Part shown: positions 43,725 through 64,000 of the stretch, in pieces | How positions within the stretch are numbered: the stretch's first letter is position 1 | Layout of the letters: each line of letters opens with the position of its first letter | NCBI RefSeq assembly: GCF_020164485.1 | Contig: NZ_JAIQZA010000009.1 | Span: forward strand, 1 to 64,000 | Reading direction: 5' to 3' | Length of the DNA stretch: 64,000 nt | Source: Salegentibacter tibetensis | GTDB lineage: Bacteria > Bacteroidota > Bacteroidia > Flavobacteriales > Flavobacteriaceae | Notes under the pieces: generated by a model | What the model saw: the letters and a program-made list of their open reading frames with translations, nothing else | The model's database searches: none | What the model was told of the DNA's origin: nothing | Translations under genes and position numbers: made by a program

Positions 43725-43742
43725 TATCTACTGTAGCTTTTC

Positions 43743-44756: not shown

Positions 44757-44809
44757 AGAATAAAATTAAGAGTTAGTAGTATGTGATTTTACTGATATTT
44801 TTGGATCTT

Positions 44810-44823: not shown

Positions 44824-44856
44824 TTTTAAAGAAGCAAAATTATAACCTTAAATTTA

Positions 44857-44864
44857 TATATTTG
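44857..44864 (+). promoter_or_regulatory. Bacteroidota-type -7 box for the GMC oxidoreductase gene
   Basis: TATATTTG matches TAnnTTTG and lies 42 bases before the GTG start at 44906. No TTG is found at the expected -33 distance; the palindrome at 44810-44823 lies just upstream of that position. Confidence 0.5.
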
Positions 44865-44905
44865 GAGCGATTCGATTAACTAAATTATTAATTAACTACA
44901 AGACA

Positions 44906-46609: not shown

Positions 46610-46619
46610 TAAAAGGATT

Positions 46620-47264: not shown

Positions 47265-47298
47265 ATTACTTGTACATAATATATCAGATAAAAAAAAG

Positions 47299-47332
47299 CT
47301 CACGGTTTTCAAACTAAACTGTGAGTTTTTTA
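47299..47332 (+). terminator. Rho-independent terminator of the GMC operon
   Basis: CTCACGGTTT (47299-47308) pairs with AAACTGTGAG (47316-47325) over 10 positions with one G-U pair and a 7-base loop, followed by TTTTTT. Confidence 0.85.
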
Positions 47333-47687
47333 ATTTTTTGGCGCCGTGAGTAGTTTACTTGCAAAAACCGGTTTGGGGTTCGCAATAATTTACTGTATAC
47401 TAATGCTTACTAAATTGTTGAAATTCTTTGAAACGAATAAATACAAATCGAACATTAAAATCATTGAATGTCTTAAAGATTAACTTGCAAAAGTACAATT
47501 AGAAATGTGTGAAAAGGATTTGGATTTTAGAAAGACTATTTTTTGAATTCAGCTTATTGTTGCAGGGTTAGACGAAATCGTTTTCGTTATTTTTATTTTG
47601 ATATACCTTTTTTGTTGACATTTATTTACATAAATTTATAATTAATTTAATACTTAATTTAGAATCTCTCAATTAAAACTAATTCTT
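47333..47687. other. 355-base non-coding control region before susC
   Basis: No gene is seen. It is AT-rich and holds the LacI-like dyad at 47573-47586 and AT-rich inverted sequence at 47620-47665 (TTTACATAAATTTATAATTA). No exact TTTG-N19-TAnnTTTG promoter was found. The length is typical of SusC leader regions. Confidence 0.4.
47573..47586. promoter_or_regulatory. LacI/GalR-type operator-like dyad upstream of susC
   Basis: CGAAATCGTTTTCG is a 14-base dyad with a central CG and a single mismatched pair, the form of LacI-family operators. It lies 102 bases before the susC start. No LacI gene is in the window. Confidence 0.45.
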
Positions 47688-50600
47688 ATGAAAAAAATTA
47701 CTTTCAGGAGCCTTTTGTTTGCTATCGCTTTTCTGTGTTTTAGCATGGTGCATGCACAACAGACAGTTTCCGGAACCGTTACCGATGAAAGTGGGCCCTT
47801 GCCGGGTGCCACTGTTTCCATAAAAGGAACATCTACAGGAACCACAACAGATTTTGACGGAAATTATTCCCTTGATGATGTGCCAGCAGATGGCGTATTA
47901 ATTTTTAGTTTTGTGGGTTATGAAACCCAGGAAATCGGTGTGAATGGACGTTCTGTTATTGATGTTAATTTAGCGGGTGATGCTGCTGAATTGGAGGAAG
48001 TGATTCTTATTGGGTATGGAACTACTACGGTACAGGATGCAACTGGTTCAGTTTCTTCCGTAACTTCCGAGGATTTTAATAAAGGAGTTATTTCCTCTCC
48101 TGAGGAACTTATTCAGGGTAAAACTGCCGGGGTGCAAATTTCGCAAACCTCCGGAGAGCCTGGAGCTGGTATAAATGTAAGGATAAGAGGATCTAATTCG
48201 ATTCGTTCGGGTAACAATCCTTTGTTCGTTGTTGATGGAGTTCCATTAACCAGTGGTTCTGCTCCCCAAACGAATGTTTCGGGGATTGGAGGTTCAGGAC
48301 AAAAAAACCCGTTAAACTTTCTTAACCCTAATGATATTGAAAGTATTTCTATTTTGAAAGATGCTTCAGCTACCGCTATTTATGGTTCCAGAGGAGCTAA
48401 CGGTGTGGTGATTATTCAAACAAAAGGAGGTAGAGGAAGAAAAGGTACGTTTGAGTTTAATAGTACCGTGAGTATAGCATCTCCGGCAAGTGAATATGAT
48501 CTTTTAGACCGCGAAACTTACTTAAATGCTCTAACAAGTGTGGGTAATAATCCCGATGAATTAGATTTTGGAGCTGACTCAGATTTTCAAGATTTTTATA
48601 CCCGAACTGTAGTTTCTAACACAAACGATCTTAGTTATTCTAAAAGTTACAATACGGGTAGCGTGAGAGCTTCTTTAGGATATACTGATCAAAAAGGTAT
48701 AGTAGAAAATACTTCATTAGAACGATTATCAGGCCGTCTTAATGCCTCTCAGCGTCTTTTTGATGATAAATTAACCTTGAGTGCACAGTTGTCTCTTTCT
48801 ACCGTGGATGAAGAAAGAGCCCCAATTTCTGGAGCAGCTGGTTCTACTGGAGATTTAATTGGTGCGTCTATCACACAAAATCCAACGGCTCCTATAGACC
48901 CATTATTTAACCCTGGAGGTAACGTATTAAACCCTGTGAGTTTATTGAATAATTTTGAGGGATTATCAGAATCAGATAGATTTTTAGCAAACCTATCCGC
49001 AGAATATGCTATTACATCCGAGCTTAAAGGAAAGGTAACTGTAGGTTACGATAAACAGGATACCGAAACCACATCTGTTTTTAGTTCTGATGTTATAGGA
49101 CTTAACGGGGTTACGGGAATAGGTAGAGGTAATTATAGTACATTTAATCAGGAAAACAGTCTTTTAGAGGCTACCCTTACTTATCTAAAAGAGTTTGATA
49201 ACTCGGTACTTGATGTGGTAGCTGGTTATTCCTATCAAAAATTTCAGCGTGATGGATTTGGTTCTGAAGGTGCAGGATTCAATACTACAAATCTTAATGC
49301 CATGGCAGGTCAGCTTAGAGATGCTTATGGTAATGTTACTGCCGTAGTTGATGATTTTGCTGTATTTGGATATGGTGCAGATGGGACTTATCTCAATACA
49401 ATTTTCCCAGAATTTTCTTCTGGCGAATTACCTTCAAATTTCGAACGACCTGTTCCAGCTTTTGTTGTGAATAATGTCTTTGACAATTTTGACGAATTGC
49501 AATCATATTTTATGCGGGCTAATTACACCTTAGCAGAAAAGTACCTGTTTACAGGAACATTTAGAGCCGATGGTTCTTCAACATTTGGTGAAAATAACCG
49601 GTATGGATATTTCCCATCAGGGGCAGTGGCATGGCAAATACATAAAGAAGATTTTATTGGAGGTAATGTATCCTTGCTTAAGTTACGTTTAGGTGCAGGT
49701 ATTGTTGGTAGCCAGGAAGGCTTGGGTTACGGGCGTTTCGTGCAGCGCGAAAGAGCTGCAGGTGGTGGAATAAGTAATGATCTTAATGTGTTACCGGCTC
49801 CTGGTTCTTTAATTGTTGGAGATCCAAATGCGGATCTTAAATGGGAGGAAACTACAGATTTAAACTTGGGTGTCGATTTTGGATTTAATGCTAACCGTTT
49901 ATCTGGCTCTTTTAACCTTTATCGTAAAACTACCAATGATCTTTTATTGGCAAGGCAAACTGCTGCTCCAAGTAATGGAGAGGTGGTTTTTAGTAACTTA
50001 CTGGATGGTAAAGTTGTAAACCAGGGTGTAGAATTTTCTCTGGATTATGATTTTATAAATGAGCAAGATTATAGTTTTTCAGCAAGCTTTAATATAGCAT
50101 ATAATCATAACGAAGTGCAGGATACTCCTTTCGTTATCCCTACAGGGGCAATACGGGGAAATGGACTTACCAATGCCTTTGCCCAGCAATTACAGGCAGG
50201 CCAGCCGCTATTTTCATTTTATATGGCTGAATTTACTGGTTTTGATGACGACGGGAACCCTACATACTTTGATTTTGATGGAAATGGCGTGGGCGATCCT
50301 GATGCTGATAAATTCTTTGTAGGTAAAGATGCGATTCCAGACTGGAATGGGGGTCTCTCATTGAGTGCCCGTTATAAAGCTTTTGATTTTGCGGCCTACT
50401 TTAACGGGCAATTCGATTTCTATGTGTATAATGCAACAAATAATGCCTTTTTTACAAAAAGTGCCTTACTTATAGGTAAGAACGTAACAGAAGATGTTTT
50501 AACTACTAATGAAAATGCCGCTTCTACTGTTGCAGTTTCCACGAGGTTCCTGGAAAGAGCGGATTTTGTAAGATTAACTTCAACTTCAATAGGATATAAC

Positions 50601-50813
50601 CTTCCGTTAGATGGGGATAACCTGGTGAAATCTTTACGACTTAGTTTGATTGGTCAGAATCTTTTCTTAATCACAGGTTATAGTGGTTTAGATCCTGAAA
50701 TTTCAGCTGATACTGGATCTCTTAATGCTTCTTCTATTCCTACTGCAGGAATAGATTATGCATCGTATCCAAGACCAAGAACTATATCTTTTGGACTTAA
50801 CGCTAGTTTTTAA
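47688..50813 (+). CDS. SusC/RagA-family TonB-linked outer-membrane transporter
   Basis: A 1041-residue protein with a Sec signal (KKITFRSLLFAIAFLCFSMVHA), a carboxypeptidase-D-like N-terminal domain (VSGTVTDESGPLPGATVSIK), a TonB-box-like EEVILIGYGT near residue 104, a plug domain (GVQISQTSGEPGAGINVRIR, LFVVDGVPLTSG) and a 22-strand barrel ending TISFGLNASF. It imports oligomers or other ligands bound by the SusD-type partner 16 bases downstream. The substrate is not obvious because no glycoside hydrolase is beside it; the neighbours are propeller lipoproteins and a haloperoxidase-like enzyme. Confidence 0.96.
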   Translation: MKKITFRSLLFAIAFLCFSMVHAQQTVSGTVTDESGPLPGATVSIKGTSTGTTTDFDGNYSLDDVPADGVLIFSFVGYETQEIGVNGRSVIDVNLAGDAAELEEVILIGYGTTTVQDATGSVSSVTSEDFNKGVISSPEELIQGKTAGVQISQTSGEPGAGINVRIRGSNSIRSGNNPLFVVDGVPLTSGSAPQTNVSGIGGSGQKNPLNFLNPNDIESISILKDASATAIYGSRGANGVVIIQTKGGRGRKGTFEFNSTVSIASPASEYDLLDRETYLNALTSVGNNPDELDFGADSDFQDFYTRTVVSNTNDLSYSKSYNTGSVRASLGYTDQKGIVENTSLERLSGRLNASQRLFDDKLTLSAQLSLSTVDEERAPISGAAGSTGDLIGASITQNPTAPIDPLFNPGGNVLNPVSLLNNFEGLSESDRFLANLSAEYAITSELKGKVTVGYDKQDTETTSVFSSDVIGLNGVTGIGRGNYSTFNQENSLLEATLTYLKEFDNSVLDVVAGYSYQKFQRDGFGSEGAGFNTTNLNAMAGQLRDAYGNVTAVVDDFAVFGYGADGTYLNTIFPEFSSGELPSNFERPVPAFVVNNVFDNFDELQSYFMRANYTLAEKYLFTGTFRADGSSTFGENNRYGYFPSGAVAWQIHKEDFIGGNVSLLKLRLGAGIVGSQEGLGYGRFVQRERAAGGGISNDLNVLPAPGSLIVGDPNADLKWEETTDLNLGVDFGFNANRLSGSFNLYRKTTNDLLLARQTAAPSNGEVVFSNLLDGKVVNQGVEFSLDYDFINEQDYSFSASFNIAYNHNEVQDTPFVIPTGAIRGNGLTNAFAQQLQAGQPLFSFYMAEFTGFDDDGNPTYFDFDGNGVGDPDADKFFVGKDAIPDWNGGLSLSARYKAFDFAAYFNGQFDFYVYNATNNAFFTKSALLIGKNVTEDVLTTNENAASTVAVSTRFLERADFVRLTSTSIGYNLPLDGDNLVKSLRLSLIGQNLFLITGYSGLDPEISADTGSLNASSIPTAGIDYASYPRPRTISFGLNASF

Positions 50814-50829
50814 TTAAATAAAATAGACA

Positions 50830-52488
50830 ATGAAAAAGATTAGAATAACAAAACGATTGATAAACCTATTACTGTTAACAGTATTGCTGGGAAATACCAT
50901 CGTGTCTTGCAGTGATTTGGAAATTGAAGGAACGGATTCTATTATAAAGGATGCTGACGAAACCGGTTTTCAGGGGGTGAGTGATCCGGAATCATTTCTA
51001 GACAATGCTTATAATAGTTTACGTGGTTATATAGGTGACCAGGCTAATTTATATGCCCTAAGTGAAGTGACTACAGATGAACAACTGGTACCTACAAGGG
51101 GATCAGACTGGGGGGATAATGGAATATGGAGACAATTACATCAACATTCCTGGACGGCAGAGCATAATTTTATTTTAAATGTCTGGAATCAATGGAATAC
51201 ATTGCATTTTCAGGGAGCTCAGGTTCTTTCTGAATTAACAAACAGTACGCCGGAACAGCAAGCAAATGCTTATTTTCTGAGAGCCCTTGGAATGTGGGTT
51301 ATCCTGGATAATTTTGGACAGGTTCCTGTAAGGGATCCCCAGGCACCACTTTTTGAAGATCCTGTGGTGCTTAAGGGGCAAGAGGCAGTAGATCAAATTG
51401 TTTCCGATTTAAATGCAGCTATAGCAGGATTGCCAGCAATTGGTCCGGGTACCGGTATGGGGGATTCAGGTGCAGCAAATGCGCGACCTGGGAAAGAAGC
51501 CGCTAAATATCTATTGGCAAAAATTCTTTTAAATAAACATATTTATCTGGGAACTGAACCTAATTCTACAGATATGAACCAGGTGGTAAGTCTTGTAGAT
51601 GAAATTACAACAGCGGGATATGGCCTTGAAGAAGGTTACTTCGATATTTTTAGAAGAGATTTGGACAGGGAAACCATATGGTTTATCCCTACTGCAGTTG
51701 GAAATAGAATCTGGAATGGGCTCCACTATAATCAGGCTCCAGATCAAACGGGTGGTGGATGGAATGGTTTTTCTACCCTTGCCGAATTTTATGATATGTT
51801 TGAAGGAAATCCTAATATGAACAGGGGAACCGCAGAAGGAGTGCTTCTAGATGATCAGGAAGAGCGTAGAGGTTATGTTCCTCCATCGGGTTTACCTGCC
51901 GGCTCATTTGAAGGTTCTACTGATAATAATGATGATGGATTTGCAGATGGTTCCAGTGTTGGTTTTGGTTTTCTTATTGACCAACAATATGACTATGATG
52001 GAACTGCTTTAAATGATAGAGGTGGAAATCCCTTAACTTTTAAAAGAGAATTTACCAATGGTTCTGGCGAAAAAAGCCTTATTAATAATAGTGAGACTAC
52101 TGGTATTCGTACCATTAAATATAATCCTCGTTATGGGGCATTTACAGAGCATGAAATTTTCTTCAGGTATTCAGATGCCTATCTGATGAAAGCTGAAGCA
52201 ATAATGAGATCTGGTGGAGATCCTACAGCAATGGTTAATGAGTTAAGGGTTCTTAGAAAAGCTCAACCTCTTAGTAGTGTAACAGAAAGTGATTTTCTTG
52301 AAGAAAGAGGAAGGGAATTGTATATGGAATTCTGGAGAAGAAATGATATGATTAGGTTTGGAGAATATACCAGGGATTGGTCTTTAAAAGCTCCTAGCGC
52401 AGTTGGGGATGAAACAAAAAACTTGTTTCCAATTCCAGCAAATCAATTGATCTTGAACCCTAATCTTACTCAGAATCCTGGGTATTAA
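50830..52488 (+). CDS. SusD/RagB-family outer-membrane lipoprotein
   Basis: A 552-residue lipoprotein (signal LLLLTVLLGNTIVSC, Cys27) with TPR-like helices of the SusD fold: GFQGVSDPESFLDNAYNSL, LYALSEVTTDEQLVPTRG, ANAYFLRALGMWVILDNFG, NARPGKEAAKYLLAKILLN and the C-terminal FLEERGRELYMEFWRRNDMIRFGEY, LFPIPANQLILNPNLTQNPG. It is the surface lid that captures ligand for the SusC transporter upstream. A strong terminator follows, but the propeller genes just beyond are probably related in function. Confidence 0.96.
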   Translation: MKKIRITKRLINLLLLTVLLGNTIVSCSDLEIEGTDSIIKDADETGFQGVSDPESFLDNAYNSLRGYIGDQANLYALSEVTTDEQLVPTRGSDWGDNGIWRQLHQHSWTAEHNFILNVWNQWNTLHFQGAQVLSELTNSTPEQQANAYFLRALGMWVILDNFGQVPVRDPQAPLFEDPVVLKGQEAVDQIVSDLNAAIAGLPAIGPGTGMGDSGAANARPGKEAAKYLLAKILLNKHIYLGTEPNSTDMNQVVSLVDEITTAGYGLEEGYFDIFRRDLDRETIWFIPTAVGNRIWNGLHYNQAPDQTGGGWNGFSTLAEFYDMFEGNPNMNRGTAEGVLLDDQEERRGYVPPSGLPAGSFEGSTDNNDDGFADGSSVGFGFLIDQQYDYDGTALNDRGGNPLTFKREFTNGSGEKSLINNSETTGIRTIKYNPRYGAFTEHEIFFRYSDAYLMKAEAIMRSGGDPTAMVNELRVLRKAQPLSSVTESDFLEERGRELYMEFWRRNDMIRFGEYTRDWSLKAPSAVGDETKNLFPIPANQLILNPNLTQNPGY

Positions 52489-52509
52489 TTTAAAGTTTTA
52501 AAATTTTAA

Positions 52510-52541
52510 AAGAGAGGGCATATTCGCCCTCTCTTTTTTTT
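52510..52541 (+). terminator. Rho-independent terminator after susD
   Basis: GAGAGGGC (52512-52519) and GCCCTCTC (52526-52533) form a perfect GC-rich 8-bp stem (10 bp with flanking A-T pairs) with a 6-base loop and an 8-base T-run. Confidence 0.93.
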
Positions 52542-52605
52542 ATAAAATATTTTATTTTAATTATAAATTATAATAGATTGCCTCGAAATATAGTTGAAGA
52601 ATTCC

Positions 52606-55600
52606 ATGGTAAAAACCAGAAGACTATTCTTAATTTTTTTCCTTACCATCCTGTTTTTTCAGGCCTGTAAAAAAGAAGAGCGTCTTTTTGAAAAAATAGA
52701 GGCTTCATATTCTAATATTTATTTTTCAAATGAGCTTGATTCAAATTCAAATCTAAACATCTTTAATTATCTGTACTATTATAATGGTGGAGGAGTGGCA
52801 GCAGGGGATTATAATCAGGATGGCCTTATAGATTTGTATTTCACCTCCAATGAGAAGGAGGATAAGCTTTTTTTGAATACAGGTGATTTTAAATTTGAAG
52901 ATATCACTTCGGCATCCGGGATTGATAACTCCGGCGGATGGACTACAGGAGTTAGTAATGTAGATATTAACGGAGATGGTTTACTGGACCTATACATTTG
53001 TAAAGTAAGTAGTTTCATGGATATGGATGGGCATAACCTGCTTTATGTGAATCAGGGTCCGGATGAAGATGGAATTCCCATTTTCGATGAGCAGTCTGCA
53101 AAATATGGTCTCGATTTCTCAGGTTTTTCTACTCACGCTGTTTTCCTGGATTACGATCAGGATGGAGATCTTGATATGTTCTTATTAAACCATTCAGTAC
53201 ATCCTAACAGAAATTACGGAAGAGGGGAAAAAAGGCAAAGTTTCGATCCAAAATCTGGAGACCGGCTGTTCAGAAACGATGATGGATTTTTTACAGATGT
53301 CTCTTCTGAATCTGGAATCTTTCAGGGAGTGATTGGGTACGGCTTGGGCGTAGCCGTGGGGGACCTTAATAATGATTTGTATCCTGATATATATGTAGGG
53401 AATGATTTCTTTGAAAATGATTATTTATATATTAATCAGAAAAATGGAAGTTTTAAAGAGTTAATTTCAGATAAACCTGAAAAAATGGGTCATACTACCC
53501 ATTTTTCCATGGGAAACGACATCGCTGATATTAATAATGATGGCCTTGCAGATATCATATCTCTGGATATGCTTCCCGAGGATTTGAATACCTACAAAAC
53601 TTCTGGACAGGAATATCCATTCCAAACTTATGCTAACTATTTGAAGCAAGGCTTTTCACCACAATACATGCAGAATACCTTACACATCAATACAGGGAAT
53701 CTAAATTTTTCGGAAACTGCATATTTAAGCGGGATTGCTGCTACAGAATGGTCCTGGGGAGTTCTTTTGGCCGATTTTGATAATGATACTCACAAAGATA
53801 TCTTTATTACCAATGGTATCAAAGGTGCTACCAACGATATGGATTTTATCAGATACATTTCAAATGAAAAAATTCAGAAACAGTTGAGTCAGGGAATATT
53901 TGAAAATTATGAGGATCTTATTAAAGAGCTGCCCAAAAAGAAATTATCCAATTACATATTTCAAAATCAGGGTGATAATACTTTTGTAAATCGAAAAGAG
54001 GAGTGGCTCAATGCAGAACCTACCTTTAGCCATGGGGTTGTGTATGCAGATCTTGATAATGACGGCGACCTGGATTTAGTCGTAAATAATGCTGATGCAA
54101 GCGTGGGTATTTTTAGAAATAATTCAGAAAAATTAATAAAAAACAATTATCTCAAGGTTCACCTGGATGGCGATAACTCTAACAAATTTGGTATTGGTGC
54201 AAAAGTTTCACTTTATTATGGAGATAAACTTCAACAGCAGGAACATTATTTAAGCAGGGGATATCTTTCTTCCCTGGCGCCTGGTTTGCATTTTGGTCTT
54301 GCTAATCAATCTTTAATTGATTCAGTAAAAGTTATCTGGCCGGGATTTTTGACTGAAACCAGGTACAAAATTGAAGCTAATAGAAGTATTAAATTTAATA
54401 TTGAGGATGCCACTTCCCTTATAGTTAATGAAGCTGAAAGCAATTCTATATTTACGAGAAGGGATTCTTTGATAGATTACAAACATGTCGAGCAATCTAC
54501 GCTGGAATTTAATCGAGAACCTCTAATCCCATTTGGTTATAGTAATCAAAGTCCACGTGCCGCAGTAGCCGATATCAATAAAGACGGTTTAGATGACCTG
54601 GTAATAGGTGGAGGAAAAACACAGGGCCTGAATTTGTGGTTGCAAAATGTTGATGGCAGTTTTGAGAAATCTGAGCAAATAGTATTTTCAGAAGACGCCA
54701 TTTCAGAAGATACCGATCAAATATTTATGGATGTGGATGGTGATATGGATTTGGATTTAATAGTAGTAAGCGGGGGTAATGAATTTACAAAAGGAAAACC
54801 TTTACAACCTCGATTATACCTTAATGAAAATGGGAAATTTAGATTAGACGACCAACAATTTAAAGGTATTAATCTTAATGCTTCCAGGATAACATCGGTA
54901 GATTTGAATGCAGATGGCTTTCCTGATGTTTGTTTTAGTGCTAATATAGTTCCGGGGGAGTACGGTAAAACTCCCCGGCAGTATTTATTTTTGAACGACG
55001 GCAATGGTAATTTTAAGGAAGTTACCGATCAATATTCTAAAGAATTTAAGAATGTCGGAAATGTTCAGGATATTATATGGATAGACATCAATAATGATAA
55101 TATTAAGGATGCTATAATGGTTGGTCACTGGATGCCTGTCACGATTTTTCTGAATAATGGGAAGAAGCTCAGCAAACTGGATAGCGGGCTTCAAGACACG
55201 AACGGATGGTGGAATGCGGTAATAGCAGAAGATTTTGATGGTGACGGGGATATAGATATTGTAGCAGGAAATTGGGGGCTTAATTCCAGACTTGAAGCTT
55301 CTTTAGAAAAACCTTTAAAGCTGTATCTTGGAGATTTTGATGGAAATGGATCTATAGATCCTGTTTTGAGCTATTTTTATGAAAATAAGGAAACAGCTTT
55401 TGCGTCTAAGGACGAACTTGACCACCAAATGCCATTTCTAAAAAAGAAATTCCCCAGTTATAAGGATTATGCAGATGCCGACTTCTCTGAGATTCTACCC
55501 AGGGAAAAATTGAAGAATGCAAAATTGAAACAGGTTTTTGAATTGGCTACTTGCTATTTTGAAAATAATGGAGACAATACCTTTACAAAGCATATCTTAC

Positions 55601-55905
55601 CTTTTGAAACACAGGTTTCCGCAATATTTGCTATTGATACGCAGGATTTTAATAATGATGGTTATCCCGATCTATTTTTAGTAGGAAACAACTATGAAAT
55701 TAGCACTCAATTAGGTAGATTAGACGCCAGCCATGGAACTGTTCTTATTAATGATAAAAACGGTTTCTTCCAAACTTATAAAAAAGAAAAACCTGATATT
55801 TCCGGGGCTGCCCGGGATATTCAGGAAATCTGTATAAATGGTGAGTTACATCTAATTGTAACCCTTAATAACGGTACTCCGACTATTTTGAAAATTAATA
55901 ATTAA
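52606..55905 (+). CDS. VCBS/FG-GAP repeat lipoprotein with ASPIC/UnbV domain, copy 1
   Basis: An exported lipoprotein of about 1099 residues from the ATG at 52606; a TTG at 52594 is also in frame. Signal FFLTILFFQAC. I count 14 Ca-binding DxDxDG-type motifs: seven before (DYNQDGLIDLYF, DINGDGLLDLYI, DYDQDGDLDMFL, DLNNDLYPDIYV, DINNDGLADIIS, DFDNDTHKDIFI, DLDNDGDLDLVV) and seven after the ASPIC/UnbV domain at about residues 510-600 (FGIGAKVSLYYGD, DSVKVIWPG). This suggests two seven-bladed beta-propellers. No enzyme motif is seen; it may bind ligand, matrix or partner proteins at the cell surface. The gene precedes two paralogues. Confidence 0.93.
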   Translation: MVKTRRLFLIFFLTILFFQACKKEERLFEKIEASYSNIYFSNELDSNSNLNIFNYLYYYNGGGVAAGDYNQDGLIDLYFTSNEKEDKLFLNTGDFKFEDITSASGIDNSGGWTTGVSNVDINGDGLLDLYICKVSSFMDMDGHNLLYVNQGPDEDGIPIFDEQSAKYGLDFSGFSTHAVFLDYDQDGDLDMFLLNHSVHPNRNYGRGEKRQSFDPKSGDRLFRNDDGFFTDVSSESGIFQGVIGYGLGVAVGDLNNDLYPDIYVGNDFFENDYLYINQKNGSFKELISDKPEKMGHTTHFSMGNDIADINNDGLADIISLDMLPEDLNTYKTSGQEYPFQTYANYLKQGFSPQYMQNTLHINTGNLNFSETAYLSGIAATEWSWGVLLADFDNDTHKDIFITNGIKGATNDMDFIRYISNEKIQKQLSQGIFENYEDLIKELPKKKLSNYIFQNQGDNTFVNRKEEWLNAEPTFSHGVVYADLDNDGDLDLVVNNADASVGIFRNNSEKLIKNNYLKVHLDGDNSNKFGIGAKVSLYYGDKLQQQEHYLSRGYLSSLAPGLHFGLANQSLIDSVKVIWPGFLTETRYKIEANRSIKFNIEDATSLIVNEAESNSIFTRRDSLIDYKHVEQSTLEFNREPLIPFGYSNQSPRAAVADINKDGLDDLVIGGGKTQGLNLWLQNVDGSFEKSEQIVFSEDAISEDTDQIFMDVDGDMDLDLIVVSGGNEFTKGKPLQPRLYLNENGKFRLDDQQFKGINLNASRITSVDLNADGFPDVCFSANIVPGEYGKTPRQYLFLNDGNGNFKEVTDQYSKEFKNVGNVQDIIWIDINNDNIKDAIMVGHWMPVTIFLNNGKKLSKLDSGLQDTNGWWNAVIAEDFDGDGDIDIVAGNWGLNSRLEASLEKPLKLYLGDFDGNGSIDPVLSYFYENKETAFASKDELDHQMPFLKKKFPSYKDYADADFSEILPREKLKNAKLKQVFELATCYFENNGDNTFTKHILPFETQVSAIFAIDTQDFNNDGYPDLFLVGNNYEISTQLGRLDASHGTVLINDKNGFFQTYKKEKPDISGAARDIQEICINGELHLIVTLNNGTPTILKINN

Positions 55906-55910
55906 ATATA

Positions 55911-58900
55911 ATGAAAGCCCTATCATATTTTTTATATTTCAGCCTAATTTTTTTACTGCTTATCTCGTGTACAGGTGAGGATAAAACAGATGAAAAACCA
56001 GAGGTTAATGAAAACACTCTCTTTACTTTAATGCCATCTGAGGAGACAGGGATTGAATTTATAAACGAAGTAAAAAACAGCCCCGATTTCAATATTTTTA
56101 AATATCGGAATTTTTATAATGGGGGAGGAGTAGCTATTGGCGATATTAATAATGATGGTTTGCCCGATATTTATTTAACAGCCAATATGAAGCCAAATAA
56201 ACTCTATCTGAATAAGGGAAATTTTCAGTTTGAGGATATTTCGGCATCTGCGGGAGTGGAAGGAAATAAACCCTGGTCTACCGGTGTTAATATGGTAGAT
56301 ATCAATAACGACGGGCTATTGGATATATATGTTAGCAATGCCGGAAATATGGAGGGGGATAATCATAATAACGAACTTTACATCAACAACGGGGATCTTA
56401 CATTTACTGAAAAAGCCGAAGAGTATAATCTTGCCGAAACCGGTTTTAGTACTCACGCTACCTTCTTCGATTATGATAAGGACGGCGATTTGGATGTATA
56501 TATTTTAAATAATAGTAATATTCCTGTGAGCAGTTTAGGATATGCTGAACAGCGAGAAGTGAGAGCGCAGGACTGGGAAAATGTTCCAAAAATTTTTCGC
56601 GGAGTTGGGGATATGTTGTTACGCAATGACGATGGTAAATTTGTGGATGTTAGTGAAGAAGCGAATATTTACGGAAGTTTGATCGGATTTGGTCTGGGGG
56701 TAGTGATAAGTGATTTTAATAATGACCTGTATCCCGATATTTATGTTTCCAATGATTTTTATGAAAGGGATTATCTCTATATCAATAATCAGGATGGAAC
56801 TTTTACCGAAGATATTGAGAACTGGACTCAGCACTTAAGTCTGTCAGCTATGGGAGTAGATATAGCAGATATCAACAACGATGGTTATGGTGATATTTTC
56901 GTAACCGATATGTTACCCGATACTGATGAGAGGGTAAAATCTGTTATGGAATTTGAAAGTTATAATGTTTTTAAACTTAAACAAAGTAAAGATTTCTTTC
57001 AGCAGTATATACATAATACGCTTCAGCTAAATAATGGAAATAATACCTTTTCTGAAATAGCACAATTCAGTGGTGTGGAAAGTACCGATTGGAGCTGGGC
57101 AGGCTTGATCTTCGATATGGATAATGATGGAAATCGCGATATTTATGTGACCAACGGTATCAATCACGATCTTACCGATCTTGATTTTGTAGAATTTTTT
57201 GCGAATGAGATTATTCAGAAAATGGCGTTGACCGGGAAAAAAGAGGCTATAGACTCCATAATTAATAAGATGCCGGTTACACCGCTCCCAAATTATGCCT
57301 TTCAGAATATGGGGAATCTCAAATTCAAGAATTCAGCGAGAGAGTGGGGGTTGGGGATTCCAAGTTTATCAAATGGCAGTGCTTATGGAGACCTGGATAA
57401 CGATGGGGATCTGGATCTTGTAGTGAATAACGTAAATATGGAATCCTTTATCTTTCGAAATAATACAGAAAAACTAAAAGACAGAAATTATTTGAGAATT
57501 AGACTAAAAGGAAATCAGAAAAATAGTTTTGGAATTGGAAGTATCATTAGACTTTACCATAATGATGAAATTATTATGCAGGAGCAGAATCCCTCAAGAG
57601 GTTTCCAGTCATCCATGGATTATACGATGAACATCGGTCTGGGAAAAGTTAATAAAATAGATTCTTTAAGGATTATTTGGCCCAATGATTCTTCCCAATT
57701 GCTTGAAAATATTGAAGCGAATTCTACCCTTATTTTGAAACAAAGTGAAGCGCTGGAAAAATACAATATCAAACCTGAAAAAAAACGTAAGCAATTGTTT
57801 GCCGAATTATCTAATAAAAATTTAGAGGCTCATAGCGAGAATTCTTATACAGATTTTGATTATGAAGGATTGATATATAAAAAATTATCTCAAGAAGGGC
57901 CTTCGCTTGCTGTCGGAGATATTAACGGAGATGGTAATGAAGATGTATTTATTGGAGGAGCGAAGGGACAGCCGGGAATTATATATATGAATCAAGGGAA
58001 CGGAAACTTGAAGAAGTCTAAACAGCCTGCCCTGGATACTGACTTTCTTTTTGAAGATACTGCCGCTGCTTTTTTTGATTTTGATGGTGATGGGGATCAG
58101 GATCTAATGGTTGGTTCGGGAGGTAATGAAGTGGGAGAAGAGCAGAATTACAGGCCCAGGTTATATATTAATGATGGGCAGGGAAAATTTTCGCCCTATG
58201 AAGGGGTACTTCCATCGGTAAACCAGAATGTCGCGGTTATTGCACCCCATGATTTTGATGGTGATGGGGATATAGATGTATTTATCGGTTCCCGAAGTGT
58301 AGTTGCTAATTATGGAATAGATCCACAACATTTATTTTTGGAAAATACAGGGGATGGTAATTTTTTAAATGCTACAGAAAGGATGGCTTTTGATGTTAAA
58401 TATGCCGGTATGGTCACCGATGCGATCTGGGAGGATGTAGATGGAGATGGTAAAAAGGATCTTATAACGGTTTCAGATTGGGGAGCACCAAAGATTTTTA
58501 AAAATTCAGGAAGGAGGCTTTCATTTTTTAAAAGCAATTTATCTAAATATACTGGATGGTGGAACACTATAGAAGCTGCCGATTTAAACAATGATGGCCA
58601 TCAGGATTTTATAATTGGTAACAAAGGCTCTAATATCCCTTATAAACCTTCTATGGAAAAACCTATGAAAATGTGGGTAAACGATTTTGATAACAATGGT
58701 ACTATTGAACAGATTGTTACCCAGCATGAAAATGGAAAAGATTATCCACTGCACATGAAGAGGGAGATGATCGCCCAGCTGGTTTTTCTAAAAAAAGAGA
58801 ATTTAAAAGCATCTGACTACGCCAAAAAGTCGATCAATGAACTAATGCCAAAAGACAAGCTTAACAATGCAATTGTGAAGGATGTAGCAATTTCGGAAAC

Positions 58901-59267
58901 AGTTATTGCTATTAATGATGGCAAAGGAAATTTCAAAATTAAAGAACTTCCCGCCCGTATTCAGTTTTCCAGCGTAAATGGTATTTCCTCTATAGATGTG
59001 AATAACGATGGTAATTTAGATCTCGTGATGGGGGGGAATAATTACGAATTTAAACCCCAGTTTTCAAGACAGGATGCCAGCTATGGAAATGTCCTGCTTG
59101 GTGATGGTGAAATGAATTTTGAATGGCAGGAGTATACCAAAAGCGGATTTTATGTTGAAGGGGAGGTTAAATACTTACGCCGATTTAAAGATAAGAATGG
59201 AAGACACTTTATAATAGTGGCTATAAACGATGAAAAACCCAAAATTTTTGAAATTAGTAATAAATAA
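55911..59267 (+). CDS. VCBS/FG-GAP repeat lipoprotein with ASPIC/UnbV domain, copy 2
   Basis: An 1118-residue paralogue of its neighbours, five bases after copy 1. The lipoprotein signal is YFSLIFLLLISC (Cys20). Seven motifs (from DINNDGLPDIYL to DLDNDGDLDLVV) precede the ASPIC/UnbV domain near residue 525-610 (FGIGSIIRLYHND, DSLRIIWPND), and seven follow (DINGDGNEDVFI, DFDGDGDQDLMV, DFDGDGDIDVFI, DVDGDGKKDLIT, DLNNDGHQDFII, DFDNNGTIEQIV, DVNNDGNLDLVM). The 13th motif is degenerate, as in both paralogues. The gene end overlaps the start of copy 3 by 38 bases. Confidence 0.93.
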   Translation: MKALSYFLYFSLIFLLLISCTGEDKTDEKPEVNENTLFTLMPSEETGIEFINEVKNSPDFNIFKYRNFYNGGGVAIGDINNDGLPDIYLTANMKPNKLYLNKGNFQFEDISASAGVEGNKPWSTGVNMVDINNDGLLDIYVSNAGNMEGDNHNNELYINNGDLTFTEKAEEYNLAETGFSTHATFFDYDKDGDLDVYILNNSNIPVSSLGYAEQREVRAQDWENVPKIFRGVGDMLLRNDDGKFVDVSEEANIYGSLIGFGLGVVISDFNNDLYPDIYVSNDFYERDYLYINNQDGTFTEDIENWTQHLSLSAMGVDIADINNDGYGDIFVTDMLPDTDERVKSVMEFESYNVFKLKQSKDFFQQYIHNTLQLNNGNNTFSEIAQFSGVESTDWSWAGLIFDMDNDGNRDIYVTNGINHDLTDLDFVEFFANEIIQKMALTGKKEAIDSIINKMPVTPLPNYAFQNMGNLKFKNSAREWGLGIPSLSNGSAYGDLDNDGDLDLVVNNVNMESFIFRNNTEKLKDRNYLRIRLKGNQKNSFGIGSIIRLYHNDEIIMQEQNPSRGFQSSMDYTMNIGLGKVNKIDSLRIIWPNDSSQLLENIEANSTLILKQSEALEKYNIKPEKKRKQLFAELSNKNLEAHSENSYTDFDYEGLIYKKLSQEGPSLAVGDINGDGNEDVFIGGAKGQPGIIYMNQGNGNLKKSKQPALDTDFLFEDTAAAFFDFDGDGDQDLMVGSGGNEVGEEQNYRPRLYINDGQGKFSPYEGVLPSVNQNVAVIAPHDFDGDGDIDVFIGSRSVVANYGIDPQHLFLENTGDGNFLNATERMAFDVKYAGMVTDAIWEDVDGDGKKDLITVSDWGAPKIFKNSGRRLSFFKSNLSKYTGWWNTIEAADLNNDGHQDFIIGNKGSNIPYKPSMEKPMKMWVNDFDNNGTIEQIVTQHENGKDYPLHMKREMIAQLVFLKKENLKASDYAKKSINELMPKDKLNNAIVKDVAISETVIAINDGKGNFKIKELPARIQFSSVNGISSIDVNNDGNLDLVMGGNNYEFKPQFSRQDASYGNVLLGDGEMNFEWQEYTKSGFYVEGEVKYLRRFKDKNGRHFIIVAINDEKPKIFEISNK

Positions 59268-62200
59268 AGCATTAATTTTTCTGGTCCTTATCGGTTTTTT
59301 TCAGGGATGCTCAGAAAATGAAGAAAAGTTTTTTTCAAACCCCGGGGCAGAAACTTCCGGGATAGATTTTATCAATAAACTTATCGAAACCCGGGATCAG
59401 AATATTCTCGATTACCTGTATTTCTACAACGGTGGGGGGGTAAGTATAGGTGATATTAATAATGATGGCTTGCCGGATATCTACTTTACCGGAAACCAGG
59501 TGGGAAATCGTTTATATCTTAATAAAGGGAATTTACAATTTGAAGATATTACTGAAAAAGCCGGAGTACAGGGCAATAGTACCTGGAATACAGGTTCTAC
59601 TATGGCCGATGTTAACGGGGATGGTCTTCTGGATATTTATGTTTGTGCCGTGGTAGGAGTAAACGGTTTTACCGGCTACAACGAACTTTTTATTAATAAT
59701 GGAGATCTAACATTCTCGGAAAAAGCTAAAGAATTCGGGCTGGATCTTGAAAATTACTCTTCTCAGGCAGCTTTCTTTGATGCCGATAATGATGGTGATC
59801 TGGATATGTACCTTCTTAATCATGCCATTCATACAAATGAATCTTTTGGTCCCGCTGAAATTAGGAATAACAGGGTTTACGAAAGTGGTGATAAATTATT
59901 TCTCAATGAAAATGGGAAATTTATTGATGTAAGTGAAGAAGCGGGGATCTATGGTGGGCCAAATAGTTATGGGCTTGGTATTAGCACAGCCGATTTTAAT
60001 AACGATGGTTTTACGGATATTTACATTGGAAATGATTTTCATGAAGATGATTACTATTATCTGAATAATGGCGATGGTACTTTTACTGAAAGCCTTAAAT
60101 CCAATTTTGGCCACGTGTCAAGGTTTTCAATGGGTAATGATGCGGCCGATATTAATAATGATGGATTTATTGATCTTATTACGCTGGATATGTTGCCGGA
60201 GGATGAAAAAATCCTCAAATCTTCAGCAGGTGAAGATGACGTTAATCTTCATAATTTGAAAATAGAACGCCTGGGGTACCATCCTCAGTACAGCCGGAAT
60301 ATGCTACATTTAAATATGGGCGGCGATTATTTTGCTGAAGTTGCACTTATGAGTGGTGTTGCTGCTACAGACTGGAGCTGGGGTGCTCTTTTTGCAGACT
60401 TTGACCAGGACGGACAACAGGATCTTTTTATCACTAATGGGATTCCTAAACGCCCAAATGATCTTGATTATATTAAATACACTTCTAATGAACAAATTAA
60501 GAAAAAATTAGATCAAACCACGTTAATAGATAACGAAGCCTTGGATAAAATGCCTTCCGGTGCAGTTACCAATTACGTTTTTAAAGGCAATTCAAACGGA
60601 ACTTTTGAGAATATGACTGATATATGGATTGCGAATGATTCAGTAATCTCTACCGGTGTTGCCTACGCCGATCTGGATAACGACGGGGATATAGATATAG
60701 TTACTAATAATATAAATAAACCTCCCAGCCTGTATATCAATAATGAAGCTACCGGCAATTATCTGAAAGTTAAATTATGGGCTGGTGAGGGCAATACGTC
60801 TGGTATTGGTAGTAAAGCCATTCTTTATACTAATAAGGGAAAGCAATACCGCCAGTTATACACTACAAAGGCTTATCAGTCTTCCTCGGAACCAATTATT
60901 CATTTTGGAATTCCTAAAAATGCCCAAATAGATTCACTTAGTATTGTCTGGCCAGACCAGACTATGAAAACACTGAATACAGTGAGGGCAAACAGTGTTT
61001 TGGAAGTAAGATGGGAACCTGATGATGAAAAAGCCGATCTTGGGAAGTTATTTAATAAAAAAAATAAATTATGGTTTTCTGTAGCTGAAACCGACTTTGG
61101 ACTTAATTACAACCACGAGGAAAATCCTTATATAGATTTTAATCTTCAAAAGTTAATCCCACACAAGATCTCCGATTTTGGTCCTGCTGTTGAAGTGGCC
61201 GATCTCAACAATGATGGTTTGGATGATGTCCTTTTCGGTGCATCCAGGTATAAACCATCAGTTGTGTTTTTTCAGGATGAAGAAGGTTTTACCAGGGAAA
61301 AACAAAAAGAAATTCAAAATGATTCCCTTTATGAGGACACTGATGTTGAAATAGCCGATTTTAATAATGATGGGACACAAGATATTTTAATGATTTCTGG
61401 AGGAGGAGAATCTGTAGGAAATAGTGAATGGTTACTGGACCGACTTTATATTAATAAGGCTGGAAATTTTAAGAAAGACAGCCTTTTTCCAGAAATATAC
61501 GCTAACTCTTCGGTAATAAAATCGGCAGATTTTGATGGAGATGGCGATCTTGATATTTTTATAGGTTCTAATGCGGTTAACTATAAGTACGGAGAAATTC
61601 CCAAGGCCTACCTGCTTAGGAATGAGAATGGAAATTTTGTAATTGACGACCAGTCCGCGGTTTTTCAGGAATTGGGAATGATAAACGATGCGGTTTGGGA
61701 AGATTTCGATAATGATGGTGATTTGGATCTTATTGTTGTGGGAGAATGGATGTCTCCCAGGTTCCTGGAGAACAGGAATGGAGTTTTTGTAGACGTGACG
61801 GATAGCCTTATTTCTGAAAAAATAAATGGCTTATGGCAGCGAATTTTGCCATTTGATATAGATAAAGATGGGGATACCGATTATCTTCTTGGTAATTGGG
61901 GCTTGAATACAAAATTAAAAGCGTCCAAAAAATACCCCCTCTTAATGTATTACAAGGATTTTGATAAGAATGGTTTGCCTGAAACATTGTTGGCAACCGA
62001 AAAAAATGGAGAATATTATTTTATCCACGGTTTGGATGATCTTGCTTCCCAGTTAAGTGAACTTATAAGAAAAAGGTTTGCCACCTACAAGGATTTTGCA
62101 GGTAAAACTGTCCAAGAAATTTTTACTAGTAAAGAACTCGAAACGGCTTCTAAGAGGGAAGTGCATTCCCTGGCTTCCGGATACCTGGAAAATAATAACG

Positions 62201-62526
62201 GAAAATTTACTTTTAGAGAATTTGATTTGCAGCTGCAAGTAGCGCCTATAAGAGCAATGTTAAAATATGATTTTAATAAAGATGGTACCGAAGAAGTATT
62301 GATAGGGGGCAATTATTTTGGGGTTACCCCTTATCACGGCAGGTTTGATGCTTTTGGCGGAGCCCTTCTAATTAATTCAGATAAAATTCTGAATTCCAAT
62401 GAAATTGGTTTAAATTTGTCACAAAAATCTGTCAAAGATTTTTCTATAATCGAAATACAGCAGCAATCTTATTTATTAATAACAATAAATGATGGGAAAA
62501 CTGAACTGTATAAATTGAATTATTAA
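59230..62526 (+). CDS. VCBS/FG-GAP repeat lipoprotein with ASPIC/UnbV domain, copy 3
   Basis: A 1098-residue paralogue. The ATG lies 38 bases inside copy 2, and the start is supported by a good lipoprotein signal (KALIFLVLIGFFQGC, Cys27). The same plan is seen: seven motifs (DINNDGLPDIYF through DLDNDGDIDIVT), ASPIC/UnbV near 510-595 (SGIGSKAILYTNKG, DSLSIVWPDQ), and seven motifs (DLNNDGLDDVLF, DFNNDGTQDILM, DFDGDGDLDIFI, DFDNDGDLDLIV, DIDKDGDTDYLL, DFDKNGLPETLL, DFNKDGTEEVLI). It ends one base before the haloperoxidase-like gene. Function unknown; partner of the SusC/D pair is inferred. Confidence 0.93.
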   Translation: MKNPKFLKLVINKALIFLVLIGFFQGCSENEEKFFSNPGAETSGIDFINKLIETRDQNILDYLYFYNGGGVSIGDINNDGLPDIYFTGNQVGNRLYLNKGNLQFEDITEKAGVQGNSTWNTGSTMADVNGDGLLDIYVCAVVGVNGFTGYNELFINNGDLTFSEKAKEFGLDLENYSSQAAFFDADNDGDLDMYLLNHAIHTNESFGPAEIRNNRVYESGDKLFLNENGKFIDVSEEAGIYGGPNSYGLGISTADFNNDGFTDIYIGNDFHEDDYYYLNNGDGTFTESLKSNFGHVSRFSMGNDAADINNDGFIDLITLDMLPEDEKILKSSAGEDDVNLHNLKIERLGYHPQYSRNMLHLNMGGDYFAEVALMSGVAATDWSWGALFADFDQDGQQDLFITNGIPKRPNDLDYIKYTSNEQIKKKLDQTTLIDNEALDKMPSGAVTNYVFKGNSNGTFENMTDIWIANDSVISTGVAYADLDNDGDIDIVTNNINKPPSLYINNEATGNYLKVKLWAGEGNTSGIGSKAILYTNKGKQYRQLYTTKAYQSSSEPIIHFGIPKNAQIDSLSIVWPDQTMKTLNTVRANSVLEVRWEPDDEKADLGKLFNKKNKLWFSVAETDFGLNYNHEENPYIDFNLQKLIPHKISDFGPAVEVADLNNDGLDDVLFGASRYKPSVVFFQDEEGFTREKQKEIQNDSLYEDTDVEIADFNNDGTQDILMISGGGESVGNSEWLLDRLYINKAGNFKKDSLFPEIYANSSVIKSADFDGDGDLDIFIGSNAVNYKYGEIPKAYLLRNENGNFVIDDQSAVFQELGMINDAVWEDFDNDGDLDLIVVGEWMSPRFLENRNGVFVDVTDSLISEKINGLWQRILPFDIDKDGDTDYLLGNWGLNTKLKASKKYPLLMYYKDFDKNGLPETLLATEKNGEYYFIHGLDDLASQLSELIRKRFATYKDFAGKTVQEIFTSKELETASKREVHSLASGYLENNNGKFTFREFDLQLQVAPIRAMLKYDFNKDGTEEVLIGGNYFGVTPYHGRFDAFGGALLINSDKILNSNEIGLNLSQKSVKDFSIIEIQQQSYLLITINDGKTELYKLNY

Positions 62527-62527
62527 T

Positions 62528-63874
62528 ATGAAGAAATTTATATTACTTATTTTCTCCTCCATTCTTATCATTTCATGTGAAAAGAAGGCTGAAAAAATAG
62601 AAATCACTTCAGAAGATTTTCATGCGGCGAATGATCATCTTACAAAGGTAATGGTGCATGATATATTTTCTCCACCCGTTGCAAGTCGTGTCTATTCGTA
62701 TTCAAATATAGCTGCCTACGAGGTTATGGCGCAGTTTGACTCTGAATATAAAAGTCTTGCCGGGCAATTAACAGGGCTTGATCCTGTTCCCGAGTCTACT
62801 TCAGAACTAACAAATCCTGAAATAGCTGCACTGGTTGCATTTTACGAAATTGGTAAGAACCTTGTTTTTTCAGAAGAAAGGCTTACAGTTAAAAGCGATA
62901 GTATTTTTGAAAGCTGGGAAGCCAGGGATGAACAAACCTTTAAAGCTTCTGAAGCTTATGGTTTGCAAATAGCAAGCCATATTAAAGATTGGATGTCCAG
63001 GGATAATTATTCCGAAACACGTACTATGCCCAAATTTTCTGTGCATACAGAAGATGAAAGCCGATGGCAACCCACCCCACCATCTTATATGGATGGGATA
63101 GAGCCACATTGGAGCAAAATACGACCATTTGCTATTAATACTGCCAATCAATTTAAGCCGGTGCCACCGCCGGAGTTTTCCATGGAGCCCGGAAGCCGTT
63201 TTCATACTGAATTGATGGAAGTCTATAATGTTCGGGAAGAGATTGCTAAAGATGAAGAGAATAGTGAAAAGATGGCTATTGCTAAATTTTGGGACTGTAA
63301 TCCTTATGTTTCCATTACAAGGGGACATTTAATGTTCGCAACAAAAAAAATAACTCCAGGGGGTCATTGGATGGGGATTACAAAAATAGCCTGTCAGAAA
63401 TCAGAAGCCGATTTCAGTAAATCTATATATGCTTACACTAAAGTAGCCATAGTACTTTCCGATGGTTTTATTAGCTGTTGGGATGAAAAATATCGCAGTA
63501 CACTGGTACGTCCTGAGACTTTAATCAATAAGTATATTGATGAGAGTTGGACTTCAGTGTTGCAAACCCCGCCATTTCCTGAATATACCAGCGGCCATTC
63601 GGTAGTTTCAGGCGCTGCGGCTATTGCACTTACTGATGTTTTTGGAAACGATTTTAGTTTCGATGATGATACTGAAGTGGAATATGGTCTACCAGTTCGA
63701 AGTTTTAATTCGTTTAAAGAAGCCTCTACTGAAGCTGCCGAGAGTAGGTTATATGGAGGAATTCATTACAGGGCAGCTATTGAAGTAGGACTTGACCAGG
63801 GTGAGGCACTTGGACACTTTATAATTAATAAGCTGGAAATGACTAATTCCCAGGGTAAGCTCGCAGCCCAGTAG
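62528..63874 (+). CDS. Vanadium-dependent haloperoxidase/PAP2-superfamily lipoprotein
   Basis: A 448-residue helical protein with a lipoprotein signal (ILLIFSSILIISC, Cys17). The vanadate/phosphate site of the superfamily is visible in order: DEKYRSTLVRPETLI (Lys, Arg, Pro), FPEYTSGHSVVSGAAA (Ser-Gly-His) and ESRLYGGIHYRAA (Arg and His). Members are haloperoxidases with bound vanadate or acid phosphatases; sequence alone does not decide. It starts one base after propeller copy 3 and is clearly in that operon. Lipid anchoring puts it at the envelope with the propeller lipoproteins. Confidence 0.92.
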   Translation: MKKFILLIFSSILIISCEKKAEKIEITSEDFHAANDHLTKVMVHDIFSPPVASRVYSYSNIAAYEVMAQFDSEYKSLAGQLTGLDPVPESTSELTNPEIAALVAFYEIGKNLVFSEERLTVKSDSIFESWEARDEQTFKASEAYGLQIASHIKDWMSRDNYSETRTMPKFSVHTEDESRWQPTPPSYMDGIEPHWSKIRPFAINTANQFKPVPPPEFSMEPGSRFHTELMEVYNVREEIAKDEENSEKMAIAKFWDCNPYVSITRGHLMFATKKITPGGHWMGITKIACQKSEADFSKSIYAYTKVAIVLSDGFISCWDEKYRSTLVRPETLINKYIDESWTSVLQTPPFPEYTSGHSVVSGAAAIALTDVFGNDFSFDDDTEVEYGLPVRSFNSFKEASTEAAESRLYGGIHYRAAIEVGLDQGEALGHFIINKLEMTNSQGKLAAQ

Positions 63875-63877
63875 TCT

Positions 63878-64000
63878 ATGAAAAAAATTTTTTTGTTATT
63901 CCTGACGCTGGTGCTCTTGGGATTGATCTGGTTTCTATTTATAAAGAAATATGATTACCAGTTTAGGATGGAAGCCAAATATGGTCCTGGTACTGTATAT
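63878..64000 (+). CDS. N-terminus of a membrane-anchored protein (partial)
   Basis: The ATG at 63878 lies three bases after the haloperoxidase-like gene stop and opens a frame that runs off the window: a TM or signal helix (KKIFLLFLTLVLLGLIWFLF), then IKKYDYQFRMEAKYGPGTVY. The start resembles membrane-anchored SRPBCC/GyrI-like proteins of Flavobacteria (KxYDYxxxFxAxxxPGT pattern, from memory), but the fragment is too short to assign. It is probably co-transcribed with the propeller operon. Confidence 0.7.
   Translation, partial: MKKIFLLFLTLVLLGLIWFLFIKKYDYQFRMEAKYGPGTVY

Follow-up and report, generated by a model that had tools for sequence, protein, structure and literature searches.

We analysed a stretch of 64,000 nucleotides from Salegentibacter tibetensis (contig NZ_JAIQZA010000009.1, positions 1 to 64,000; called the window here), which ends within a seven-gene operon on the forward strand, where a SusC/SusD pair and three ASPIC/UnbV proteins are combined with an enzyme related to the vanadium haloperoxidases (VHPO). 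The operon opens with a SusC/RagA-type TonB-dependent transporter (47688-50813; TIGR04056, 670 bits against a cut-off of 368) and a SusD-type lipoprotein (50830-52488; PF07980 and PF14322), and these profile matches uphold the SusC/SusD linkage named in an earlier reading of the letters (the sequence-only reading). Three ASPIC/UnbV lipoproteins of about 1100 residues, each a predicted double propeller, follow: A (52606-55905 from its first Met, the open frame starting with a TTG at 52594; PF13517 E 3.5e-70, PF07593 E 8.8e-17), B (55911-59267; PF13517 E 1.6e-80, PF07593 E 2.5e-18) and C (59230-62526; PF13517 E 4e-73, PF07593 E 2.6e-18). The next gene encodes the VHPO (iodoperoxidase-like) lipoprotein (62528-63874; PF01569 PAP2 E 9.3e-9 and phmmer matches to 4cit/4usz). 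A GyrI-like gene starts 3 bp past the enzyme gene, and only its start lies inside the window (63878-64000); the whole copy (L007:1879-2802; PF06445 E 2.2e-7) encodes a protein of 307 aa that is hydrophobic at its N-terminus and has a small-molecule-binding domain of the GyrI-like type. Beyond it the next gene lies on the opposite strand, as seen in the source contig (134,183 bp), which runs past the window.

The genes are tightly spaced, with 16 bp between SusC and SusD, 117 bp between SusD and A, 5 bp between A and B, an overlap of 38 bp between B and C and 1 bp between C and the enzyme. Pfam and NCBIfam profiles agree with the labels of the operon genes, and Pfam places one PF07593 domain in each of A, B and C. 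A lipobox-like Cys is present in the window's SusD, A, B, C and enzyme. The adjacent susC/susD pair is a hallmark of polysaccharide utilization loci (PULs), and the solved chain nearest to the window's SusD is SusD of the starch system (3ck7, E 2.4e-24). For SusC, the nearest solved chain is 8aa4 (E 4.4e-94), which belongs to the dextran utilisome (PMC7618045).

The sequence-only reading had predicted that SusC/SusD, ASPIC proteins and a VHPO would occur together in relatives, and this was observed. We searched 199 genomes of the window's family, taking the enzyme at E <= 1e-20 and a close B at 1300 bits or more. For B, no more than three candidates were scored in any one genome, so its counts may be low. 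The enzyme was found in 91 genomes and a close B in 51, and 50 of these 51 also carried the enzyme (Fisher p 1.5e-20, uncorrected for kinship). The starts of B and the enzyme lay within 10 kb of each other in 47 genomes and at 11, 18 and 23 kb in the remaining three; PF07593 matches as such occurred in 155 of the 199. We also examined the named loci around the best 80 enzyme matches, of which 75 were kept and five were dropped for short upstream DNA. Two or more ASPIC genes stand before the enzyme in 64 of the 75, an ASPIC gene lies less than 100 bp from it in 61, and the GyrI-like gene follows it in 56. The GyrI-like gene is fast-evolving (median identity 28%) yet fixed in position.

From 102 enzyme matches, we picked 60 neighbourhoods covering the upper part and a spread of the weaker ones, and classed them as type I (34, with B at 55% or more), type II (13) and other (13). 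In these counts L050 figures as type II but is a type-I locus with B about 16 kb before A, and L089 figures as other but is an inverted type-II set. The 34 type-I loci contain C in all cases, the GyrI-like gene in 33, SusC and SusD in view in 31 and A in view in 21. Their median identity to the window is 53% for SusC (31 rows), 55% for SusD (31), 53% for A (21), 54% for C (35), 60% for the enzyme (34) and 28% for the GyrI-like protein (33), and B is the most conserved protein of the operon (68%, 34 loci). If translation is taken to begin at the first Met, 24 of the 34 loci show an overlap of B with C, which measures 8, 35 or 38 bp. More upstream DNA was examined for the three type-I loci in which SusC/D was unseen within 18 kb, and two of them have SusC/D on the same strand further upstream; in one of these (L220/L053) a more diverged SusC (44%) and SusD (37%) stand before B.

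Type-II loci carry more distant SusC (about 28-37%) and SusD (about 25-29%) with two B-like proteins and one C- or A-like protein (about 36-47%), and this set adjoins or is near the enzyme. Between its two B-like genes lies a gene for a 200-residue protein (seen in L090:10975-11577 and in 12 more loci), which begins like a lipoprotein and belongs to no known family, as neither Pfam nor NCBIfam gave a match. Genera with the module include Zobellia, Maribacter, Muricauda, Aquimarina, Flavobacterium, Christiangramia and Arenibacter; in Arenibacter palladensis and A. nanhaiticus (L106, L140) the order is SusD-B-C-enzyme-GyrI-like, with A not in view. At class level, the enzyme was found at E <= 1e-60 in 58 of 395 genomes, and same-strand ASPIC genes stand upstream in 13 of 20 loci from other families, which were chosen from these matches on long contigs. 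The order SusC-SusD-A-B-C-VHPO-(GyrI-like) is a conserved module, mostly of marine flavobacteria.

The three ASPIC proteins had been taken for a local triplication, and this part of the sequence-only reading did not hold. In a FastTree tree of 162 ASPIC proteins (local support only), three clades with local support of 100 correspond to the first-, second- and third-position rows, that is, to C, B and A. The B clade contains 56 of the 58 second-position rows, and the A clade of 32 rows contains all 30 third-position rows and two second-position rows (L114, L119). The C clade of 61 rows contains 60 of the 65 first-position rows, with L111, L125, L131, L156 and L162 falling outside, and a solitary ASPIC protein from the window's genome. 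Position in the operon and ancestry of the ASPIC proteins thus go together. Recent tandem triplication is ruled out by these separate clades and by the mutual identity of A, B and C (about 39-40%), which is lower than their median identity to the same position in other genera (53, 68 and 54%, respectively). By sequence, A, B and C are three ancient position-specific paralogues.

Each of the three proteins had been said to carry exactly 14 calcium-loop motifs, arranged 7+7 around the ASPIC domain, and this count depends on how the motif is matched. With the strict pattern Dx[DN]x[DN]G, A has 10 sites, B 13 and C 14. A looser version gives 15, 15 and 17, and when the sites off the regular series (1, 1 and 3) are set aside, 14 remain in each protein, seven before and seven after the ASPIC domain. 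The motif Asp residues are conserved in the alignments of A, B and C, and the Dx[DN]xDG loops are predicted calcium sites. Site 13 is degenerate in A, B and C alike, as had been noticed before. It follows site 12 by exactly 34 residues in all three proteins, while the other spacings within the propellers are 49-104 residues, and since 34 residues are too short for a blade, site 13 is probably not a blade motif.

AlphaFold models were made for B (52-row alignment; predicted local distance difference test score, pLDDT, 88.5; predicted template modelling score, pTM, 0.89) and for C (36 rows; pLDDT 84.1, pTM 0.85), and in both a beta domain lies between two propellers. The first part of each resembles CRTAC1 (9etn), with Z 40.4 and a root-mean-square deviation (rmsd) of 2.5 over 460 residues for B 34-613, and Z 39.0 and rmsd 2.5 over 458 residues for C 31-597. 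The CRTAC1 arrangement of a PF13517 propeller followed by PF07593 is seen in the domains of A, B and C and in the models of B and C, whereas a second propeller and a lipid anchor are additions of the bacterial proteins. The second halves (B 625-1118 and C 611-1098) align with entire propellers, the LGI1 EPTP domain among them, at Z up to 30.9 and 28.7, and in B 298 of 313 residues were aligned with 4d6v. We take these matched propellers to be seven-bladed. On this basis, the models support the earlier proposal that B and C each consist of two seven-bladed propellers around a central ASPIC domain.

In the B model, the strands at site 12 (886-890 and 899-903) are followed by a hairpin (919-924 and 933-940) that bears site 13, by helices between 950 and 985 and by strands 998-1002 and 1008-1012, and the final three strands (1085-1115) have no motif. 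From this strand order, the simplest seven-blade reading would put site 13 into an insertion of blade five and leave the closing blade motif-free; an insertion would explain why A, B and C show the same oddness. D925 and D927 of B are invariant across 52 rows, and site 13 of B may bind a metal. In A, B and C alike, the first propeller is conserved best, and more variation is seen in the ASPIC domain and in large parts of the second propeller.

The enzyme is similar over nearly its full length to the solved Zobellia galactanivorans iodoperoxidase (4cit, 4usz; phmmer E 1.4e-195 over 441 residues), with the same site residues and a lipobox-like Cys. The solved protein is VIPO1, and the vanadate-site residues of the window's enzyme and their numbering were assigned from it. 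K321, R328, S355-G356-H357, R407, H413, W318 and F350 are identical in all 61 aligned sequences, the window's included, and D319 is kept in 56. In PMC5064120, 4usz, whose sequence is the same as that of 4cit, is the vanadium iodoperoxidase of Z. galactanivorans. The Z. uliginosa orthologue (L117) agrees with 4cit at all but 7 of 444 positions (98% identity), and its locus has the order A-B-C-enzyme-GyrI-like, which means that the orthologue of the solved iodoperoxidase belongs to the A-B-C module. The Z. galactanivorans protein is known as a single enzyme, and no link of it to SusC/D or ASPIC proteins was found in the literature listings searched. The comparison supports assigning the window's enzyme to the VHPO kind, near the solved iodoperoxidase and with an intact site, and oxidation of iodide would be expected from its similarity to 4cit. 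The sequence-only reading had spoken of a vanadate/phosphate-site enzyme; the VHPO kind was borne out, but the closest characterised protein is an iodoperoxidase and not a bromoperoxidase or phosphatase.

The unassigned genes of the 60 neighbourhoods grouped into sugar families, with these numbers of loci: LacI regulators (26), Na/solute symporters (22), xylose isomerase (14), xylulokinase (14), pgmB (12), glycoside hydrolase family 65 (GH65; 10), family 32 (GH32; 7), sugar transporters of the major facilitator superfamily (MFS; 5) and fructokinase (4). LacI adjoins susC divergently in 23 of its 26 loci, and a GH65-pgmB-LacI set is divergent from susC in three of the four neighbourhoods that were extended upstream. 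Xylulokinase and xylose isomerase stand between SusD and A or B in eight loci, before A in one, and before the enzyme, with the symporter in between, in five. The xylose isomerase lies above its equivalog cut-off (669.9 against 533 bits), and the xylulokinase lies under its own (306 against 380 bits) but with FGGY kinase domains. As a control, the 57 genomes of these neighbourhoods carry 36 xylose isomerase genes in 35 genomes, of which 14 fall within the fetched 20 kb, while about 0.2 would be expected under random placement in 3.6 Mb. GH65 and GH32 were seen near the copies of relatives and are not in the window's operon.

Considering the gene order, the predicted folds and the sugar genes together, we propose, with about an even chance of being right, that the operon codes for a machine of the outer membrane that takes up a sugar or a sugar-bearing small molecule and would resemble a utilisome with propeller binders and an iodoperoxidase. 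Surface lipoproteins come after SusC/SusD in a PUL, as they do here, and the order fits a utilisome (SusC2D2 with extra lipoproteins) as far as it is known here from the genes. Such surface lipoproteins can sit on SusC as a single complex (PMC7618045). SusC/SusD would then act as a TonB-driven lidded channel, and A, B and C would be outer-membrane lipoproteins that replace the surface glycan-binding proteins, probably capturing the ligand through their calcium propellers and forming a rim on SusC. The last lipoprotein would take the place of a glycosidase in the operon and would convert iodide and hydrogen peroxide to hypoiodous acid at the outer membrane, acting either on the captured material or on the hydrogen peroxide and iodide that surround the cell during feeding. 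We infer that the products are exposed at the surface and form a complex, that the sugar binding is calcium-dependent and that the enzyme serves the same process. A sugar-directed function has precedents in the PF13517 propellers, which include the PVL lectin, interacting with monosaccharides and calcium, and the sugar enzyme aldos-2-ulose dehydratase (AUDH, 4a7k), both seven-bladed members of the same Pfam superfamily (PMC8023676). This resemblance concerns the fold only: neither was listed by sequence searches of solved structures, and for B and C the 50 fold matches listed include AUDH.

Several results weigh against this proposal. The Z of AUDH sits among those of many unrelated propellers, and no sugar-binding residue was found in the propeller proteins. 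By Pfam, glycoside hydrolase, lyase and esterase families are absent from the eight proteins of 44906-63874, and the locus thus lacks the carbohydrate-active enzymes by which a PUL is recognised. Forty-one of the 91 enzyme-bearing genomes have no close B, an ASPIC gene was not in view beside some enzyme copies (e.g. L069, L081, L088, L199, L200), and the search covered one further genome from the window's genus (G031), in which the enzyme and PF07593 matches were both absent. Among type-I loci, SusD lies about 10 kb upstream of A in Z. uliginosa (L218/L048; SusC 54%, SusD 48%), and G108 (L219/L057) shows no SusC/D in 28 kb upstream of A. The export-signal residues of A, B, C and the enzyme are mixed, and with a crude choice of starts the lipobox pattern fits 28 of 59 A sequences. 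Furthermore, a SusD tree of 43 rows hardly tracks the sugar labels, with 9 changes for the xylose labels (10.6 when shuffled) and 8 for GH65/pgmB (9.1).

On the same tree, the GH32/fructokinase labels need 3 changes (6.6 when shuffled) and all labels together 18, against 23.1, a number as low in 1 of 200 shuffles, so that some clustering of labels is present, mostly from GH32. Genes of the pgmB/LacI and xylose groups also occur together in some loci. Because the labels scatter and such mixed loci occur, one ancestral sugar cluster with later losses is likely, and in that case the 14 of 36 xylose isomerase genes are not 14 independent events. The use of the sugar cassette as a guide to the ligand was therefore unsupported, the xylose and GH65 labels being scattered, and the sugar neighbours may be remnants of the ancestral cluster and not clues to the ligand.

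Other explanations have to be weighed against sugar uptake. The operon could serve iodine acquisition, with the enzyme oxidising iodide by means of hydrogen peroxide from sugar oxidation, which would account for the sugar linkage, and with the calcium propellers and SusC/D capturing and importing oxidised or organically bound iodine; we consider this improbable. Iodine uptake by Arenibacter sp. C-21 needs glucose, oxygen and calcium, glucose can be replaced by a system that generates hydrogen peroxide or oxidises iodide, and at least five proteins related to the Zobellia iodoperoxidase are encoded in its genome (PMC5064120). The presence of SusD-B-C-enzyme-GyrI-like in A. palladensis and A. 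nanhaiticus agrees with this, as does the A-B-C set of Zobellia with the orthologue of the solved iodoperoxidase, and Z. galactanivorans accumulates iodine (PMC9296495). On the other hand, SusC/D is closest to glycan transporters, and the glucose-methanol-choline (GMC) oxidoreductase of the window, a neighbour upstream of SusC, was not seen conserved with the module and has dehydrogenases as its nearest solved relatives. The operon is also present in Flavobacterium species (L171, L172, L175, L180) that are presumably freshwater or lake-mat isolates. From the match of requirements, the module is a natural candidate for the iodine uptake of Arenibacter. A bolder form, in which marine Flavobacteriaceae would owe a sugar- and calcium-dependent iodine uptake to this operon as its genetic basis, that is, to a TonB-driven utilisome coupling surface iodide oxidation, calcium-propeller capture and import, with hypoiodite possibly cycled as a sugar oxidant, seems to us unlikely.

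The peroxidase could instead clear hydrogen peroxide, or make hypohalous acid against competitors, during feeding and be merely co-expressed with a sugar importer, and we find this doubtful to a similar degree. It would agree with the finding that Zobellia on fresh algae induces antioxidant genes, including vIPO3 and catalases (PMC9296495), and with some enzyme copies (L069, L081) that have sugar genes next to them and no ASPIC gene in view, but the co-occurrence with B in 50 of 51 genomes and the near-constant adjacency suggest a closer tie. Very unlikely, in our view, is a PAP2-fold phosphatase acting on sugar phosphates or phosphorylated glycans before uptake. The PF01569 match and the several neighbour genes that handle sugar phosphates would suit such an enzyme, and vanadate and phosphate sites are interchangeable in the PAP2/haloperoxidase superfamily. 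However, the window's enzyme keeps the site residues, W318 and F350 included, and the protein to which the Zobellia orthologue is 98% identical (4cit) is reportedly a vanadium iodoperoxidase by activity as well as in the title of the 2014 paper. The same name is used in PMC5064120.

The proposed sugar-uptake machine can be compared with the levan and dextran utilisomes of Bacteroides thetaiotaomicron, which likewise have a SusC/SusD core and more outer-membrane lipoproteins; compared at the level of genes, the operon has double propellers and an iodoperoxidase in place of a binding protein and a glycoside hydrolase (PMC7618045). We found no paper on the operon among the papers listed for UnbV, for VIPO1, for UnbV or haloperoxidases with SusD and for haloperoxidases with PULs, although the 2014 iodoperoxidase paper or the 2007 C-21 paper may describe it. 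The operon is unusual in its make-up; each part comes from a known family, and the gene combination and its sugar linkage are new within the literature searched. To our knowledge, double-propeller ASPIC proteins have no assigned function, and we know of no agreed physiological role for bacterial iodoperoxidases, although a structure has been solved. Both are tied here to one sugar-linked SusC/D operon in dozens of genera, which makes their function testable by simple deletions. In this way, the operon opens to experiment the connection of sugar feeding with iodine chemistry, of which little is understood, and it bears on the movement of iodine by marine bacteria.

Upstream of the operon, the window carries on the reverse strand a 3-keto-disaccharide hydrolase family protein (39392-40159), an AP_endonuc_2 (xylose-isomerase-like) barrel (40260-41348), a Gfo/Idh/MocA oxidoreductase (41327-42466), an MFS protein (42489-43724) and a second AP_endonuc_2 barrel of the same kind (43743-44756). 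On the forward strand follow the GMC oxidoreductase and a gluconate-2-dehydrogenase subunit-3-like protein (44906-47264; PF05199, PF00732, PF13618). By its domains, the region 39392-47264 looks like a 3-keto-glycoside pathway, presumably with the usual make-up of such pathways. Among solved structures, the GMC oxidoreductase is closest to dehydrogenases of glucose and fructose, and its matches to pyranose oxidases are far weaker. Relatives of this pair occurred in none of the 60 neighbourhoods (viewed a few kb upstream of SusC and 0.5 kb downstream of the enzyme), both genes occurred in two of the 80 best named loci (L146 and L165; up to 10 kb on each side), and GMC without subunit 3 in one of the 20 outside-family loci (L214). 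The GMC oxidoreductase as a conserved source of hydrogen peroxide was thus unsupported, as it was seldom seen beside the module and is closest to dehydrogenases, and the pair is a sugar-linked neighbour and not a core member. In L146 (Salegentibacter) and L165 (Zunongwangia), the pair lies downstream of the GyrI-like gene on the other strand, and their GMC proteins are 95% and 83% identical to the window's, their enzyme only 59%.

Elsewhere in the window's genome, two more ASPIC proteins are encoded near SusC/D-like genes (L008 and L010, on contigs C78 and C111). From translations labelled by eye, one of these ASPIC genes is followed by an isomerase-barrel-like gene, and the other is accompanied by two SusC/D-like pairs and a 456-residue lipoprotein-like protein. 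Near the operon, a Cu/Zn superoxide dismutase (37286-37873) and an alpha/beta hydrolase that ends in an OsmC domain (37971-39182) are encoded, and both could be relevant to peroxide stress.

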